64,000 nt of DNA from Octadecabacter sp. SW4 (lineage in GTDB: Bacteria > Pseudomonadota > Alphaproteobacteria > Rhodobacterales > Rhodobacteraceae): the NCBI RefSeq assembly GCF_008065155.1, contig NZ_CP042819.1:1922001-1986000 (forward strand). Reading direction: 5' to 3'. The number at the start of each line of letters is the position of its first letter. Position 1 is the first letter of the stretch. The position numbers were made by a program, and so were the translations under genes. Below the pieces are notes generated by a model, which was given only the letters and a program-made list of their open reading frames with translations, searched no databases and had not been told where the DNA came from. This document shows positions 3,090-30,616 of the stretch, piece by piece.

Positions 3090-3737
3090 CTAGACGGCTG
3101 GCGCATGCACGGCGGCGGTTTGCGGACGATGGGTGGCGCGCGGCAACTCTTGCAGTGTGGGCATCGTCTGGATGCTCATCACCGCGTATTTATGGCCATC
3201 GTCAGCGTTCACGTAGGGGTCGCACATCAGGGCCGCGTCGTAGCCCAGCTTGCGCAACACCCGCAGCAGCCAAAGGTTTGACAGCGAAATCAGCGTTTCG
3301 GCCCCTTCCCGTTCGGCCATCTGCACCAGCCCGTCCAGGATCAGCGCCAGACAGGTCGTGCGCTCACGCATGGATTTGACCTCGTCGGCGATCACCAGTC
3401 GGGTGCATTCCCAGACTTTCGGATCGGCGATTTCCGCGTCCAGCATTTTCGGGATCGTGCCCAGTTTGCCCATCTGCGCATCGCGCAGCATATAGGTGTG
3501 ATCCCCCCAATGGGCCATCGTCGACATGGCGCGTGCGCCTGCGATCACCTTGCCGTCCTTCAACACCAGCGAGTAGCGCGCCAGCGGATTGTCGTATTGG
3601 TCCATCTCCACACTGTCGTTATGGGGAATCGTCCAGCCCAGATTATCGACAAAGAATTTCTTGCGCAGGGCAAGATAGTCGAAATAGGCCGATCCGAACT
3701 GATGAGCGGTTGACAATTCAAACGTGATATTTTCCAT
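3090..3737 (-). CDS. luxI: Acyl-homoserine-lactone synthase, LuxI family
   Basis: This 215-residue cytoplasmic enzyme makes an N-acyl-homoserine lactone from S-adenosylmethionine and an acyl carrier protein- or CoA-bound acyl chain. The invariant LuxI residues are all visible and in register: R25, F29, W35, E44, D46, D49, R69 and the WECTR segment with E110 and R113. The C-terminal 20 residues (Pro/Ala-rich) are not conserved. The start at 3737 has GGAGAG seven or eight bases upstream, inside a perfect hairpin (see 3742-3760). It lies 113 bp downstream of luxR on the same strand. The acyl chain cannot be read from sequence. Confidence 0.93.
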   Translation of the reverse strand: MENITFELSTAHQFGSAYFDYLALRKKFFVDNLGWTIPHNDSVEMDQYDNPLARYSLVLKDGKVIAGARAMSTMAHWGDHTYMLRDAQMGKLGTIPKMLDAEIADPKVWECTRLVIADEVKSMRERTTCLALILDGLVQMAEREGAETLISLSNLWLLRVLRKLGYDAALMCDPYVNADDGHKYAVMSIQTMPTLQELPRATHRPQTAAVHAPAV

Positions 3738-3850: not shown

Positions 3851-4459
3851 CTAAATCAGGCCGAATTCACTTGCCGCTGCGGCCGCCTGTGCGCTGGTCT
3901 TGGCCCCAAGTTTCAACTTGGCATTGCGCAACCGCTGTTTGATCGCCCCTTCGGAAACACCGATCACATGGGCGATTTCCTTGAGCCGCTTACCCTCCTT
4001 GACCATGCGCAGCGCTTCGATTTCGGCCTTCGTCAGGTTCGTGGGCGGGGCCTTGTCATGGTGCAGCCGCGTCACATAGGCCCGCAGCACGGCAATTTCG
4101 GCATTGTTGAATTCGCGATCACCGCGCACGAATGATCCAAACGATCGCTGCCCTTCGGCATTGCCGTCAAAACAGGCAATCGCACAGCCAAACCGCAACC
4201 CGAACGCATGTGCCTGTTGCATCACGCGCATCGGATCGTCCAACGTGATCTCACTCCAGCGAATAGCGCCCGTATTGGTGTAAATCCAACGGATTACCGG
4301 ATCGTGCAGCATAAAGCGCTGGGTCGTGTAGTGTTCGACCCAATCCGCAGGCAAGGCGTTCACTTCCTCAAGCGGAAATGCAAATCCAACCCGCAGGGCA
4401 ATGTAATACCCCGCAGGCGCGATTGCAGCGATATCGGTCTGGCTTATCAGACCAGTCAT
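3851..4459 (-). CDS. luxR: LuxR-family quorum-sensing regulator
   Basis: This 202-residue protein has an N-terminal autoinducer-binding domain (about 1-130) and a C-terminal LuxR helix-turn-helix (about 141-202). The signal-pocket residues of the family are present: W40, Y44, D53-P54, W58 and W68. The DNA-binding domain reads LTKAEIEALRMVKEGK, then KEIAHVIGVSEGAIKQRL and ends GLI. It likely binds the lactone made by the adjacent LuxI. AAGGAG precedes the ATG at 4459. It is transcribed ahead of luxI, which also has its own candidate promoter. It is divergent from a paralogue lacking the DNA-binding domain. Confidence 0.93.
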   Translation of the reverse strand: MTGLISQTDIAAIAPAGYYIALRVGFAFPLEEVNALPADWVEHYTTQRFMLHDPVIRWIYTNTGAIRWSEITLDDPMRVMQQAHAFGLRFGCAIACFDGNAEGQRSFGSFVRGDREFNNAEIAVLRAYVTRLHHDKAPPTNLTKAEIEALRMVKEGKRLKEIAHVIGVSEGAIKQRLRNAKLKLGAKTSAQAAAAASEFGLI

Positions 4460-4522
4460 ATCGGGCTCCTTGGTGGGGTGGGAACTAGGAAACGGCTATT
4501 AATTCGAATGCCAAACATCTAC

Positions 4523-4559
4523 ACACTATTGAACTGCGCCCCTGTGGGATACACTATTG
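4523..4559. repeat. Direct repeat ACACTATTG x2 in the divergent luxR spacer
   Basis: ACACTATTG occurs at 4523-4531 and again at 4551-4559, 28 bp apart, in the 146-bp spacer between luxR and its divergent paralogue. The second copy runs into ATTGCAAT, an 8-bp palindrome. The spacing is close to three helical turns, so the copies could face the same side of DNA as half-sites. No promoter consensus is clear here. Confidence 0.4.
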
Positions 4560-4605
4560 CAATCACGCCAAGACAGGCAACCTAAAAGCGAGTGTCGCTA
4601 CGTCA

Positions 4606-5097
4606 ATGGAACAGAAAACCGAAATAAAACGTATCCTTACGTCACTTCAAGCCGCGAGCCCCTCTGGGTTTGCGATTGCCTTTCACATCCGTTTTACGAC
4701 CCCCGACTTCCTGTTTCAAACCTATCCAAAGGCCTGGATCGACCGGTATTCCGAACAGGGCATGGTCATGAAAGACCCCATTGTGCGCTGGGGCTTCGGG
4801 CAAACGGGTGCGATTCGCTGGTCCAAGCTGGAACAAGATGACGAATTCGGGGTGATTGCCCAGTCGCGCGATTTCGACATGAACTATGGCATTGCCAGCG
4901 CAATCGAGGACGGCGGCAGCCGCAGCGTTGCAGGCTTTGCCCGGTCGGACCGCGAATTTACCGACGCCGAGATCGCAACCCTCGGGGAGTCACTGGCCGA
5001 GCTTCACGCCCTGACCGCCAACAAGGACGGGATGAGCGATGCCTTGCGCGACTACCTGCAGGAAATGTCTGTGAAATTCACCCATCCCAGCGCCTGA
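4606..5097 (+). CDS. LuxR paralogue with autoinducer-binding domain only (no HTH)
   Basis: This 163-residue protein is a LuxR signal-binding domain without the DNA-binding half. Its pocket residues W44, Y48, D57-P58, W62 and W72 have exactly the spacing seen in the adjacent luxR product. The two share TGAIRWS and SDREF/GDREF-type blocks, so they are paralogues. After residue 135 only about 28 residues remain (ending KFTHPSA), and the 71 bp to the next gene hold no HTH in any frame. It could bind the signal as a sink, or pair with full-length LuxR and block it, as truncated LuxR proteins such as TrlR do in Agrobacterium. No clear Shine-Dalgarno precedes the ATG; a small AGCGA/TCGCT hairpin sits at 4587-4599. 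Confidence 0.85.
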   Translation: MEQKTEIKRILTSLQAASPSGFAIAFHIRFTTPDFLFQTYPKAWIDRYSEQGMVMKDPIVRWGFGQTGAIRWSKLEQDDEFGVIAQSRDFDMNYGIASAIEDGGSRSVAGFARSDREFTDAEIATLGESLAELHALTANKDGMSDALRDYLQEMSVKFTHPSA

Positions 5098-5109
5098 TTT
5101 CCGGCGCTG
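5088..5109 (+). terminator. Hairpin over the stop codon of the HTH-less LuxR gene
   Basis: CAGCGCC (5088-5094) pairs with GGCGCTG (5103-5109) around an 8-nt loop that contains the TGA stop. No T run follows, so it may be a weak terminator or a stabilising 3' structure ahead of the fliG-like gene. Confidence 0.4.
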
Positions 5110-5168
5110 ATCATACTTCATTCATCAAATCGTGCTGATATGTCGGCAGTTCCCCAAAGGACGCCGCA

Positions 5169-6194
5169 ATGACGCAAATCGACGAAACCGTTTCCCGCAG
5201 CCGCAAGGCGGCGATGGTTGTGCAAATGCTTTTGGCCGAAGGGCAGCGCCTGTCGCTCTCGTCCCTGCCCGAAGAAACGCAACTGCGCCTGACCCGCGAA
5301 TTGGGGGCAATGCGCACGATTGACCGCACGACACTGCTGCAAGTGGCCGCCGAATTTACCCGCGACCTCGAGGCGGTGGCGATGACCGCCCCCGGCGGCG
5401 TTGAAAAAGCGTTGAATGCCCTTGATGGGCAGATCAGCCCCGCCACCGCCGCGCGCCTGCGCGAAGAAGCCTCAAAATCGCAAGGCGGCGACCCTTGGGC
5501 GCAGGTCATTGCCATGTCGCCTGCCGACCTGCGCGCCGTCGCCACCGGTGAGGCGCTCGAAGTTTGCGCCGTGCTGATGTCGAAACTGCCCGTTGCCAAG
5601 GCCGCTGAACTGATGGGCCTGATTCCGGGCGAACGCGCGCGCCGCATCGCCTTTGCGATCTCGCGCACCAGTGCGATCACGCCAGATGCGGTCGCGCGGA
5701 TCGGTGCGGCGCTGGCCAGCCAATACGCAGGCACCCAGGCGCCCGTCTTTGCCCAGCCGCCCGTGCAGCGGGTCGGTGCGATCCTCAACTCGGTCGGCGC
5801 TGCGACCCGCGATTCCGTGCTTGCAGGGCTGGTCGATGAAGACGCCAGTTTCGCCGACGATGTGCGCAAGGCGATCTTTACCTTTCCCGATATCGCCACG
5901 CGATTGGCCGCAGGCGATGTGCCCAAGGTCACGCGCAACGTTGATAATGGCGAACTGGTCACCGCATTGACAGCCGCGCAAGCCGCAGGCGGTCAGGACG
6001 CCGAAAGCGCCGACTTCATCCTGGCGAACATGTCGCAACGCATGGCCGATTCCCTGCGCGAGGAAATGGGCGAACGTGGCAAAGTAAAGAAATCAGACGG
6101 GGAAAGCGCGATGAACGCCGTCGTCGGTGCAATCCGCGACGCGGTGGATGGCGGCGAAATCAGCCTCATCAGCACCGAGGAGGAGGAAGATTAG
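5169..6194 (+). CDS. fliG: FliG-like flagellar motor switch protein, diverged and isolated
   Basis: The 341 residues fit the length and layout of FliG, the rotor protein that passes torque from the stators to the flagellar C ring. The C-terminal third is best conserved: FTFPDIATRLAAGDVPKV, then FILANMSQRMADSLREEM and GKVKKSDGESAMNAVVGAIRD. The middle domain has KLPVAKAAELMGLIPGERARRI, but the usual EHPQ motif reads GEALE. The start at 5169 has AAGGA upstream. No other flagellar gene lies nearby; it sits beside quorum-sensing genes and overlaps the DUF1223 gene by 4 bp tail to tail. A motor role is likely but not proven from sequence. Confidence 0.75.
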   Translation: MTQIDETVSRSRKAAMVVQMLLAEGQRLSLSSLPEETQLRLTRELGAMRTIDRTTLLQVAAEFTRDLEAVAMTAPGGVEKALNALDGQISPATAARLREEASKSQGGDPWAQVIAMSPADLRAVATGEALEVCAVLMSKLPVAKAAELMGLIPGERARRIAFAISRTSAITPDAVARIGAALASQYAGTQAPVFAQPPVQRVGAILNSVGAATRDSVLAGLVDEDASFADDVRKAIFTFPDIATRLAAGDVPKVTRNVDNGELVTALTAAQAAGGQDAESADFILANMSQRMADSLREEMGERGKVKKSDGESAMNAVVGAIRDAVDGGEISLISTEEEED

Positions 6195-25715: not shown

Positions 25716-26936
25716 ATGAAACTGATGCCCATCCTCACCGCCGTTCTGGTGACCGCGTTTTTGTTATTAATGGTGTTTTACCGCGACACGCTGCTGGCCT
25801 TTGCCCAGTCAGAGCCTGTCACCGCCGAAACCGAAACGGTGGCAGAAGCGGCCGAACCCGCGCGCATCGTATCGGTTGTCGCCATGACATCAACCGCGCA
25901 AACCGTTGATAGCGCAGTCATTATGCGTGGCCGCACCGAAGCGGCGCGGCAAGTCGATGTGCGTGCCGAAACCACCGGTCAGGTGGTTTCCGATCCACTG
26001 CGCAAGGGTGCATTTGTCAACGAGGGCGACATCCTGTGCGAGCTTGATCCCGGCACCCGTGCATCCCGCCTGGCCGAGGCCCGCGCCCGTCTGGGCGAAG
26101 CCGAAGGCCGCATTCCCGAAGCCCAGGCCGCACTGGCCGAGGCGGAGGCGCGCGTGCGCGAGGCCGATATCAACGTCAACGCCGCCCGCCGGCTGAGCGA
26201 GGACGGTTTTGCGTCGGAAACACGCCTTGTCAGCGCCGAAGCCACCCGCGAGGCAGCCCTTGCGGGCGTGCAGCGCGCCAATTCCGGCGTCATTTCCGCC
26301 CGCGCCGGGATCGAAGCGGCCGAGGCGGCCGTGCAGGCCGCGCAAAAGGAGATCGAGAACCTGACCATCACGGCCCCCTTTAGCGGCTTGCTGGAAACCG
26401 ATACGGCCGAACTGGGCAGCCTGCTGCAACCGGGTGCCGCCTGCGCCACGATCATCCAGCTTGATCCGATCAAACTGGTCGGCTTCGTGCCCGAAATCGA
26501 CGTCAACAAGGTCACCGTCGGCGCAATGGCCGGCGGGCGGCTTGCCACGGGGGCGGAAATTGCGGGGCGGGTCACCTTCCTGTCGCGCTCGGCAGATGAA
26601 ACCACCCGCACCTTCCGTGTTGAAATCGAAGTGCCGAACGGCGATCTGGCGATCCGCGATGGCCAGACGGCGGAAATCATCGTCGCCTCGGACGGGCAAC
26701 AGGCGCATCTGCTGCGCCAGTCCTCACTGACACTGAACGACGATGGCGCGTTGGGCATTCGCGTGGTCGCAGACGATAATACAGCGCAGTTCCTGCCCGT
26801 CACCTTGCTGCGCGATACGGTCGATGGTGTCTGGGTCGCGGGCCTGCCCGACACGGTTGATGTGATTATCGTCGGGCAGGAATATGTGATCGACGGTGTC
26901 CCTATCGCGCCGACCTTGCAGGAGGCGGACGGATGA
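25716..26936 (+). CDS. RND efflux periplasmic adaptor subunit (MFP)
   Basis: The 406-residue adaptor links an RND pump to an outer-membrane channel. It has one N-terminal hydrophobic anchor (about 5-25), a lipoyl half DVRAETTGQVVSDPLRKG, an Ala/Glu-rich coiled-coil hairpin (about 115-205), the second lipoyl half ITAPFSGLLETDTAELG and a beta-barrel. No lipobox is present. The stop overlaps the permease start by 4 bp (ATGA). No TolC-like channel gene is in the window. Confidence 0.94.
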   Translation: MKLMPILTAVLVTAFLLLMVFYRDTLLAFAQSEPVTAETETVAEAAEPARIVSVVAMTSTAQTVDSAVIMRGRTEAARQVDVRAETTGQVVSDPLRKGAFVNEGDILCELDPGTRASRLAEARARLGEAEGRIPEAQAALAEAEARVREADINVNAARRLSEDGFASETRLVSAEATREAALAGVQRANSGVISARAGIEAAEAAVQAAQKEIENLTITAPFSGLLETDTAELGSLLQPGAACATIIQLDPIKLVGFVPEIDVNKVTVGAMAGGRLATGAEIAGRVTFLSRSADETTRTFRVEIEVPNGDLAIRDGQTAEIIVASDGQQAHLLRQSSLTLNDDGALGIRVVADDNTAQFLPVTLLRDTVDGVWVAGLPDTVDVIIVGQEYVIDGVPIAPTLQEADG

Positions 26937-29900
26937 TCAAACTTGTTGATATCGCCGCGTCCCGCGCGCGGATGGTCATTGCTTTTATCATCCTTTCGCT
27001 TCTGGCGGGCGGCTTTGCTTATGTGGGTCTGCCCAAAGAGGGCGAACCGGATATCGAGATTCCGGTCCTGTTTGTCTCGGTCCCCTTTCCCGGTATTTCC
27101 GCCGAAGACAGTGAAACCCTGCTGGTCAAGCCGATGGAATCGGAACTGGTCGATCTGGACGGGCTGAAAACCATGACCGCCACAGCCGCAGAAGGCTATG
27201 CGGGTGTCGCGCTGGAATTCGAATTTGGCTGGGACAAGACCAAGATCATGGCCGATGTGCGCGACGCCATGAGCAACGCCGAAGCCCAGTTTCCAGATGG
27301 CGCAGACCAGTATTCAATCAATGAAATCAACTTTTCCGAATTTCCGATCATCATCGTCAACCTGACCGGCGATGTGCCCGAACGCATGCTGCTGCAAGTC
27401 GCCAAAGACCTGCAGGACCGGATCGAGGGCATCGACGCCGTGCTTGACGCGGCTCTGACCGGCGAGCGCGCAGAGATGCTCGAGGTGATCATCGACCCCC
27501 TGCGCCTTGAGGCCTATAACGTCACCGCAGGCGAATTGATCAACGTTGTGAACAACAACAACCTGTTGATTGCTGCAGGCGAAGTGGACAGCCCGCAGGG
27601 GGCTTTTTCCGTCAAGATTCCATCGTCGTTCGATAACGCGCTTGATGTTTACGGCCTGCCCGTCAAAACCAACGGTGACCGTGTGGTGACCCTTGGCGAT
27701 CTGGCCGATATCCGCCTGACATTTGAAGACCGCGAAAGCGTGGCGCGCTTTGATGGGGTCAACACGGTGGCCTTGCAGGTCGTGAAGCGGCGCGGCTTCA
27801 ACCTGATCGACACATCGGCGCTGGTGCGCGAGGCCGTGGCGGCCGAGCAGGCCACCTGGCCCGACGATCTGAAAGCGGCCATTCAGGTTGGCACATCCAA
27901 TGACCAAAGCCGCAACGTCGCCTCGATGGTCAGCCAGTTGGAAGGCTCGGTTCTGACGGCGATCGCGCTGGTGATGATCGTCGTGCTGGCCGCCCTTGGC
28001 ACCCGCCCCGCACTGCTGGTCGGCTTTTCGATTCCCACATCGTTCCTTCTGTGTTTTGCCCTGCTTGCGGTGATGGGCATCACCATTTCCAACATCGTGA
28101 TGTTTGGCCTGATTCTGGCCGTGGGGATGCTGGTGGACGGCGCGATTGTGGTGGTTGAATACGCCGACAAACGTATCCGCGAAGGTGTCGGCCCGATGCA
28201 CGCCTATGTCGAAGCGGCCAAGCGGATGTTCTGGCCCATCGTCAGTTCCACCGCGACGACGCTTTGTGCCTTTCTGCCGATGCTGTTCTGGCCCGGAGTG
28301 CCGGGGCAGTTCATGGGCATGTTGCCCGTCACGCTGATCTTCGTCCTCTCGGCTTCACTGATCGTCGCGCTGATCTATCTGCCCGTGCTGGGCGGCGTCA
28401 CCGGCCGGATGAGCCGGACATTCGGACGCGCTTCGGATGGGCTGCGTCAAATCGCACCGTGGTGGCTGCGCGCCGCACTGGTGCTGCCTGCGATCATGAT
28501 GATCTTTACCGGTGCGATGATGACGCTGAACCCGGCCTATCTGTCCGGTCAGGCCGTGCAGACCGATGGGTTCATCGCGTCGTTGCCGGGTATGATCCTG
28601 TTTTTCCTGGGGGCCGTGGCCGTGTCGATCACAGTCGGGTCGATCCGCATCCAACGTCAGGCCAAGCGTATCAAGGCGGGCTATCGCCGCTCGCCCTTTG
28701 GCTGGGTGATCCACACCATCACCGGCAATCCGGTCATGCCTCTGGTCAGCATCGGCGCGATTATCTTTATCGTCATCTCGGTCTTTGGCTACTTTGGCGA
28801 AAACAATAACGGCGTCGAATTTTTTGTCGAAAGCGAACCCGAACAGGCCATCGTCTATGTGCAGGCGCGCGGCAACCTGTCCCTGCCCGAAAAGGACGCG
28901 CTGGTGATGCTCGCCGAACAGATGGCGATCGACACGCCCGGCGTGCAGACCGTATTTGCCTTTGCCGGTGCGGGCGGGTTGAATCAGAACACCGCAGGCG
29001 CAAGTGGGCCGGGCGATGCGATCGGCCAGCTTCAGATCGAACTGATCCCGTGGGAGGACCGCCCCGCCTATGCGCGCGACCACCCCGATGAAATCTCGCT
29101 GGCGGAACTGGATGGCGATATCGTCATGGCCAACCTTCAGGCAAAACTTGACACGATCCCCGGTATCCGCACCGAAACCCTGAACCTGTCGATGGGTCCG
29201 GGGGCGGCAAAACCGCTGCACCTGCGCCTGACGGGCAATGACTGGGAACAACTGCTGGCCGCCACGGGTGCGGCGCGCACCCTGTTCGAAGACACCCCCG
29301 GGCTGATCGTCATCGAAGACAGTCGCCCCCTGCCCGGCATTGATTGGGAAATCAACGTCGATGTGGAAAAAGCCGGCCGGTATGGCGCCGATGTGGCGAC
29401 CGTCGGCGGCATGGTGCAACTGATCACGCGCGGCATCATGCTGGGCAGCTACACCCCCGATGGTGGCGATGAAGAGATCGACATCCGCGTGCGCCTGCCC
29501 GAACAGGACCGCGTGTTGTCCACGCTCGATTCCCTGCGAGTGCGCACGCAGGCGGGCCTTGTGCCGCTGTCCAATTTCATCACCCGCACGCCAGTGCCGA
29601 AACTGGCGCAGATCAACCGGATTGATCAGGAACGCTATTTCGACGTCAAGGCCGATGTCGACAGCGACCTTGTGAAACTGACCGACCCGGACAGTGGCGA
29701 TTTCCGCGTCACCACCGCCGCTGCCGCCGAGGCCGACCAGAGCGTGCAGGATCAGATCGCCGACGGCACGCTGTTGCAGGCGGTCGTGAACCCCAACGAA
29801 CGGATCGCGGTGCTGACGCAGTGGCTGGAAACACCGGGCAACCTGCCCGCGGGCATCGGTTTTGAATGGACCGGTGATGCACAGGAACAAGAGGAAAGTC

Positions 29901-30616
29901 AGGAATTCCTGGTGTCGGCCTTTGCTGGTGCCCTGGCGTTGATGTTCATCATCCTGCTGGCCCAGTTCAACAGCTTTTACAATTCCGTCCTTGTGCTGCT
30001 GGCGGTGGTTCTGTCCACCACCGGCGTGCTGATCGGCATGCTGGTGATGGATCAGGCGTTTTCAATCATCATGACCGGCACGGGCATCGTCGCCTTGGCG
30101 GGGATCGTGGTGAACAACAACATCGTGCTAATTGACACCTATCAGGAATACGAAAAATACATGCCACGAACCGAGGCCATCACCCGCACCGCCGAAGACC
30201 GCATTCGTCCGGTGTTGCTGACCACGATCACGACGATGGCGGGGCTTGCGCCGATGATGTTTGGCCTTTCGCTTGATTTCATCAACGGCGGCTACAGCAT
30301 CGACAGCCCCACGGCACTTTGGTGGAAACAACTGGCCACGGCGGTGGTGTTTGGCCTGGGGATCGCCACGGTGCTGACGCTGGTGTTCACGCCCTCGATG
30401 CTGGCGCTGCGGGTCTGGGTGACGACCTATGCCCGTTGGGGCGGGCAAGCGCTGGCAAAACTGTCGCTGGGGCGTGGCAGCCGCGCCGCGCAGGACTGGG
30501 CACTGGAACGCGATGCCAAACGGGTGCGCGCGCCAGAGATCCTCTGGGGTGAAGACCCGTTCACCGCCCCTGACCCTGTCGTGGTCCCCGAGACTTCCCT
30601 CAAGGCTGCGGAATGA
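26933..30616 (+). CDS. RND efflux transporter permease, enlarged
   Basis: A 1227-residue inner-membrane proton-drug antiporter, about 180 residues longer than AcrB-type pumps. The TM4 motif reads VGMLVDGAIVVVEYADKR, with one Asp where AcrB has two; the TM10 motif is GIVVNNNIVLIDTYQEY, without the AcrB Lys. Extra hydrophobic segments (around LVLPAIMMIFTGAMM and GMILFFLGAVAVSITV, about residues 520-570) lie between the sixth and seventh canonical helices, so about 14 membrane spans are predicted. Its stop overlaps the next gene by 4 bp. The substrate class cannot be told from sequence. Confidence 0.94.
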   Translation: MIKLVDIAASRARMVIAFIILSLLAGGFAYVGLPKEGEPDIEIPVLFVSVPFPGISAEDSETLLVKPMESELVDLDGLKTMTATAAEGYAGVALEFEFGWDKTKIMADVRDAMSNAEAQFPDGADQYSINEINFSEFPIIIVNLTGDVPERMLLQVAKDLQDRIEGIDAVLDAALTGERAEMLEVIIDPLRLEAYNVTAGELINVVNNNNLLIAAGEVDSPQGAFSVKIPSSFDNALDVYGLPVKTNGDRVVTLGDLADIRLTFEDRESVARFDGVNTVALQVVKRRGFNLIDTSALVREAVAAEQATWPDDLKAAIQVGTSNDQSRNVASMVSQLEGSVLTAIALVMIVVLAALGTRPALLVGFSIPTSFLLCFALLAVMGITISNIVMFGLILAVGMLVDGAIVVVEYADKRIREGVGPMHAYVEAAKRMFWPIVSSTATTLCAFLPMLFWPGVPGQFMGMLPVTLIFVLSASLIVALIYLPVLGGVTGRMSRTFGRASDGLRQIAPWWLRAALVLPAIMMIFTGAMMTLNPAYLSGQAVQTDGFIASLPGMILFFLGAVAVSITVGSIRIQRQAKRIKAGYRRSPFGWVIHTITGNPVMPLVSIGAIIFIVISVFGYFGENNNGVEFFVESEPEQAIVYVQARGNLSLPEKDALVMLAEQMAIDTPGVQTVFAFAGAGGLNQNTAGASGPGDAIGQLQIELIPWEDRPAYARDHPDEISLAELDGDIVMANLQAKLDTIPGIRTETLNLSMGPGAAKPLHLRLTGNDWEQLLAATGAARTLFEDTPGLIVIEDSRPLPGIDWEINVDVEKAGRYGADVATVGGMVQLITRGIMLGSYTPDGGDEEIDIRVRLPEQDRVLSTLDSLRVRTQAGLVPLSNFITRTPVPKLAQINRIDQERYFDVKADVDSDLVKLTDPDSGDFRVTTAAAAEADQSVQDQIADGTLLQAVVNPNERIAVLTQWLETPGNLPAGIGFEWTGDAQEQEESQEFLVSAFAGALALMFIILLAQFNSFYNSVLVLLAVVLSTTGVLIGMLVMDQAFSIIMTGTGIVALAGIVVNNNIVLIDTYQEYEKYMPRTEAITRTAEDRIRPVLLTTITTMAGLAPMMFGLSLDFINGGYSIDSPTALWWKQLATAVVFGLGIATVLTLVFTPSMLALRVWVTTYARWGGQALAKLSLGRGSRAAQDWALERDAKRVRAPEILWGEDPFTAPDPVVVPETSLKAAE

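Follow-up and report, generated by a model that had tools for sequence, protein, structure and literature searches.

A probable CerN-type LuxR paralogue without a DNA-binding domain beside luxR and luxI in Octadecabacter sp. SW4

The window, a stretch of 64,000 nucleotides from the genome of Octadecabacter sp. SW4, contains a short gene that is divergent from a luxR-luxI pair and whose product has the autoinducer-binding domain of LuxR-type proteins but not their helix-turn-helix (HTH). This short protein is probably a CerN-type anti-LuxR, acting in a three-gene module that comprises its own synthase. CerN is an HTH-less LuxR homologue of Cereibacter sphaeroides, and a 2024 paper describes it as antagonizing CerM in the presence of AHL (PMC11655674, accessible text). 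It was published as one protein from one species, and the present survey places it in a family in which LuxI, LuxR and HTH-less LuxR occur together. The link between CerN and the arrangement known as topology D, the near-obligate triad, the shared truncation point and a conserved leader element are new. Surveys that count the short gene as an ordinary LuxR would misread the circuit. It also becomes testable whether the signal is read by the short protein rather than by the transcription factor.

Domain content and truncation point of the short protein

The sole Pfam match of the short protein is Autoind_bind (PF03472), with 57.1 bits against a cut-off of 23, and GerE is absent in the same search. 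The adjacent LuxR contains both Autoind_bind (61.5 bits) and GerE (31.5 bits), and the two proteins share 37% identity over 138 amino acids (BLASTP). The first-pass annotation described an HTH-less LuxR paralogue divergent from luxR-luxI, with the pocket landmarks in the same spacing as in the adjacent LuxR. Both statements hold: a protein with only Autoind_bind adjoins a full LuxR and a LuxI, and the landmarks read from the two protein sequences are W44, Y48, D57, W62 and W72 in the short protein and W40, Y44, D53, W58 and W68 in the LuxR. The pocket of the short protein is complete (W, Y, D, P, W, G), and structure prediction gives a confident model with the LuxR ligand-binding fold. The GerE/HTH DNA-binding domain that marks a LuxR-type transcription factor is missing from it.

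An HTH hidden by a frameshift near the end of the gene was also considered in the first-pass annotation. None is found in the three forward-strand frames of 4990-5400, where the HTH profile gives at most 2.5 bits, compared with 114.8 bits for the window LuxR. From the domain end (about position 5016) to the fliG start there is room for about 51 codons, and GerE needs 57 positions. The low profile scores and the lack of room mean that an HTH is not restorable by a frameshift.

Most tails of the short proteins (consensus GIETLSPETREALRRMSIRFTHP) are in register with helix 1 of the LuxR HTH (LuxR1 consensus PPTSLTKAQIEALRLIAEGDRHA), and the in-register score is higher than at the twelve other offsets tried. 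Column shuffles reach the tail score in 0 of 5000 cases with LuxR1 and in 23 of 5000 with the partner LuxR, a score that leans towards a relic in that it rests on an alignment itself optimised. Some short proteins, such as those of L166, L175, L180 and L184, have no relic-like tail. The in-register alignment suggests that the cut fell within the HTH domain, with the first helix left over.

The ribosome site of the short gene matches AGGAGG at 3 of 6 positions, and those of luxR, luxI and fliG at 5 of 6 each. The weak site reported by the first-pass annotation is therefore real in the window, but its argument for low expression is not general: across 101 non-redundant loci the mean match is 3.77/6 for the short gene versus 3.59/6 for luxR (p 0.15), and a weak site is rejected as characteristic of the family. 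The z score of −1.56 for RNA structure around the gene's start is not convincing.

The fliG gene follows the short gene on the same strand after a gap of 71 bp, a neighbourhood common to 24 of 60 triads. A flagellar tie through fliG was considered and rejected: the gene is present in 331 of the 394 family genomes and in 57 of the 63 with a close LuxI (counted by eye), which is not a significant enrichment (p 0.14). Farther along the window, 25716-30616 contains an HlyD-type adaptor and, behind it, a 1227-aa efflux pump of the AcrB family.

Features of the short gene and its surroundings in the window
Feature	Position	Strand	Details
LuxI-type AHL synthase of the triad	3090..3737	-	215 aa
Full-length LuxR, CerM clade	3851..4459	-	202 aa; pocket complete
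Divergent intergenic region common to luxR and the short gene	4460..4605	n/a	
Conserved leader element, 5' of the short gene	4575..4594	+	GCAACC, two bases, AAAGCGAG
HTH-less LuxR paralogue, probably CerN-type	4606..5097	+	ATG start; 163 aa
Autoinducer-binding domain of the short protein	4708..4998	+	residues 35-131; W44, Y48, D57, P58, W72, G95
Tail helix of the short protein, likely HTH helix 1 relic	5038..5082	+	residues 145-159
FliG, adjoining the short gene	5169..6194	+	the genome's only FliG match

Conservation of the triad in Rhodobacteraceae

A scan for the short gene starts from the short gene itself, so 394 family genomes were searched with the window LuxI instead. This search yields 71 matches in 70 genomes, and all 71 loci were examined. 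The 64 best matches, with scores of about 170 bits or more, are defined as close LuxI loci. Sixty of these carry a full LuxR together with the HTH-less protein, while in three of the four misses the contig ends and in the fourth luxI is interrupted by a stop codon; the triad is thus near-obligate for this synthase. The seven weaker matches represent other types of LuxI, and their surroundings showed no short gene. The triad occurs in 59 of the 394 genomes, one of which has two copies. All 60 complete loci contain the HTH-less short form adjoining a CerM-type LuxR; the short gene is divergent in 58 and lies downstream of luxI in two. These two, L190 and L191 (G183 and G094), have the short gene on the same strand as luxI, and both have tryptophan at G95.

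A scan of named genomes with the short family gives 68 loci, of which 67 contain a full LuxR and the short gene, divergent in 67 of 67. LuxI is present in the stretch in 63 of the 68, and fliG and the adenylosuccinate lyase gene are both present in 33. The protein search found 151 homologues of the short protein, with lengths of 148-170 amino acids in 115 of the best 120 listed. In a class-wide sample of 289 genomes, two matched, and both belong to the window's own family.

The dN/dS ratio is 0.017 to 0.284 in the five computable short-gene pairs; for the window gene paired with that of its nearest relative, saturation of the synonymous sites prevented the calculation. The short gene is under purifying selection in the relatives. 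Conserved length and synteny across Rhodobacteraceae had been proposed as a check, and the short form, the pocket and the synteny are all kept. A decaying pseudogene of a full LuxR would fit the missing DNA-binding domain and the weak ribosome site, and broken copies exist elsewhere, as in L083, where the short gene is split into two ORFs. In contrast, all 60 complete loci are HTH-less, selection is purifying, and no HTH occurs in the three forward frames behind the gene. The chance of decay is negligible, as the first-pass annotation had argued from the intact pocket, and the family survey refutes the pseudogene or frameshift reading.

The distances between the proteins co-vary across the 60 triads with rho values of 0.69 (short protein and LuxR), 0.46 (short protein and LuxI) and 0.36 (LuxR and LuxI), and across the 24 loci with purB and fliG with 0.26, 0.43 and 0.07 in the same order. 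The result is mixed.

The pair of LuxR and short gene is kept in L202, L207 and L214, where this LuxI is not detected in the fetched stretch, and in L203-L205, where another LuxR and LuxI lie beside it. A short protein that acts purely as an AHL sponge, with no contact to other proteins, would agree with a kept pocket and no DNA-binding domain. However, the pair persists in the three loci where this LuxI was not found, and genetics and pull-down experiments show that CerN acts through CerM (PMC11655674, accessible text), so that titration by itself is very unlikely. In L214 (G107:C11) the pair is located between purB and fliG with no LuxI found, and the short protein has threonine in place of the pocket proline.

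The genome contains five Autoind_bind and four Autoind_synth matches, including the two and the one of the window. Other quorum-sensing genes occur in G000:C1 at 360 kb, 1532 kb, 1810 kb and 2767 kb, and the tandem LuxR1-LuxI1 pair at 360 kb (L002) has no short gene. The three other LuxR-type and three other LuxI-type matches could be involved. One of these LuxRs, for example LuxR1 at 360 kb, might even be the main partner: in own-genome matches the short proteins are slightly closer to LuxR1 (116.8 bits) than to the adjacent LuxR (90.1 bits), several LuxR-type proteins are available in the genome, and LuxR-type proteins can cross-pair, as known for QscR (PMC13043044, accessible text). A main partner elsewhere nevertheless has little probability, since the CerM-type LuxR adjoins in each of the 60 complete triads and also in the pairs without this LuxI.

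Pocket residues, leader element and proposed function

The pockets of 66 short proteins (60 from triads and six others) and of their 66 partner LuxRs were compared with the pattern WYDPWG. W44, Y48, D57 and W72 are kept in all 66 short proteins, and three deviate, at P58 or G95. Eight partner LuxRs deviate from the pattern, and in all eight loci the short protein is intact. The excess of pocket loss in the LuxRs, 8 versus 3 of 66, is not significant (p 0.21); with G95 left out it is 7 versus 1 (p 0.06), in a set with several close kin among the loci. The pattern is suggestive and is consistent with signal reading by the short protein. The partner LuxRs of L157, L160, L168, L169 and L174 have lost the tryptophan at W72, and their short proteins keep it.

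The pocket of the window LuxR is complete, with tryptophan where CerM has phenylalanine (W57 position), and because of this tryptophan the window LuxR may itself bind AHL. The full pocket in both window proteins would suit a dominant-negative role, in which the LuxR requires AHL and heterodimers of the short protein with AHL-bound LuxR raise the quorum threshold. TrlR of Agrobacterium works in this manner (PMC11655674 and PMC13043044, accessible text of both). In contrast, the window LuxR belongs to the CerM clade, and CerM was reported to bind DNA without AHL (PMC11655674). The eight deviating LuxR pockets beside intact partners would also be odd if the LuxR reads AHL, although their excess is not significant. 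This dominant-negative role is considered rather unlikely.

The first-pass annotation offered several functions for the short protein. Of these, heterodimer formation with LuxR is favoured, because CerN was reported to bind CerM only with AHL and to weaken its DNA binding, and pure titration of the lactone is less likely, because loss of cerM suppresses loss of cerN and restores swimming (PMC11655674, accessible text). Since CerM needs no AHL to bind DNA, the role of the short protein may be to receive the signal, as opposed to restraining a LuxR that AHL activates. For the probable CerN-type anti-LuxR of the window, the predicted course of AHL binding, pairing, DNA release and control of target genes is as follows. 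At low density the CerM-type LuxR would occupy its targets with no need for AHL. Rising levels of AHL from the neighbouring LuxI would load the short protein, which would then pair with the neighbouring LuxR in inactive heterodimers and keep it off DNA, so that the regulon of this LuxR would be switched. The outcome in Cereibacter is that ctrA expression and Fla2 motility are restored; mutants in cerN and cerI lose CtrA and Fla2 motility (PMC11655674).

A wider and more tentative proposal is that about one in seven Rhodobacteraceae genomes contains a split receptor, consisting of an HTH-less AHL receptor and an AHL-independent LuxR effector that is free to lose its pocket. LuxI and both proteins might then represent one ancestral switch, with cerN-cerM of Cereibacter as a rewired remnant. 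This is possible but doubtful.

The divergent region contains a conserved leader element. GCAACC on either strand is present in 40 of 101 non-redundant divergent regions (5.8 in shuffled regions), and AAAGCGAG in 24 of 101 (0.4 in shuffled regions); these plain word counts are independent of the leader matrix. With the matrix, which was trained on loci later counted, an element above the 95% shuffled score is found in 65 of 101 regions, and 45 of these 65 end 9-13 nt before the start codon of the short gene. The core pattern occurs exactly once in the whole genome. Near-matches genome-wide comprise one with one mismatch and eight with two, which is no excess over the 14 of the reversed-pattern control. 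The element differs from the CerM motif and is a candidate LuxR operator or translation control site. The published CerM motif was itself tried in the divergent region and rejected, with 0 and 6 of 101 compared to 0.1 and 5.5 after shuffling. In the five loci whose LuxR lacks the tryptophan at W72, several divergent regions contain half sites, GTTGC and GCAAC, that are oriented towards each other.

Comparison with CerN/CerM, topology D and TrlR

CerN and CerM: The window LuxR and the CerM of Cereibacter fall into one clade of 16 LuxRs, three of them Cereibacter-like, with support of 100/99. The locus L203 has the order short gene, then divergently LuxR, LuxR and LuxI, and its proteins have Pfam scores near those printed for CerN, CerM, CerR and CerI (PMC11655674, accessible text). 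Its short protein has 98% identity to a C. johrii protein and 81% to a C. sphaeroides protein, and phenylalanine replaces W57 in its CerM counterpart, in agreement with the published CerM (PMC11655674). By gene order, Pfam scores, W57F and the identity to C. johrii, L203 is taken as a Cereibacter locus. The window short protein is 36% identical to the Cereibacter CerN counterpart, no more than to its own LuxR (37%). The short proteins form one group in 0% of 200 bootstrap trees of the careful analysis; in free trees they are interspersed near the CerM clade and LuxR1, the latter being closest to the Cereibacter group, and AU tests do not reject a single short-protein clade (p-AU 0.694 and 0.395). 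A single origin of the short form is thus neither supported nor rejected by the trees, and the argument for kinship with CerN draws less on the short-protein tree than on domain content, position and partner.

CerN resembles the window protein in being an HTH-less homologue, in its complete pocket and in having a same-clade LuxR as neighbour (PMC11655674), and the Cereibacter pair in L203 is divergent as in the window. The Cereibacter pair differs in being accompanied by CerR, which is a second LuxR, and by CerI, which is a different LuxI, whereas the window pair has its own LuxI of another type. The two LuxRs differ as well, with F at the W57 position in CerM and W in the window LuxR. In the accessible text of the CerN paper, the species comparison finds synteny conserved only for gtaR (PMC11655674).

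Topology D: In a 2013 survey of quorum sensing in Roseobacter, this arrangement received the name topology D; fliG was pointed out, and each D genome was listed with two luxR tags (PMC3824088, accessible text). The window corresponds to it, with luxI/luxR between the adenylosuccinate lyase gene and fliG and with a second luxR. According to the survey, quorum sensing had at that time been investigated in none of the D genomes; its accessible text makes no mention of an HTH-less luxR, and the word 'truncated' appears there 0 times. Oceanicola granulosus, a D1 genome of that survey, has a protein of the short family (P0117). The literature search found no paper joining CerN/CerM to topology D.

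TrlR: TrlR of Agrobacterium tumefaciens is, like the window protein, of LuxR type without a DNA-binding domain, and it inactivates a full-length LuxR (PMC11655674, accessible text). It is a near-copy of its partner, with 88% identity to TraR (PMC11655674), whereas the window short protein has 37% identity to its neighbour and its short form is family-wide. TraR needs AHL for DNA binding, whereas CerM, the counterpart from the clade of the window LuxR, does not (accessible text).
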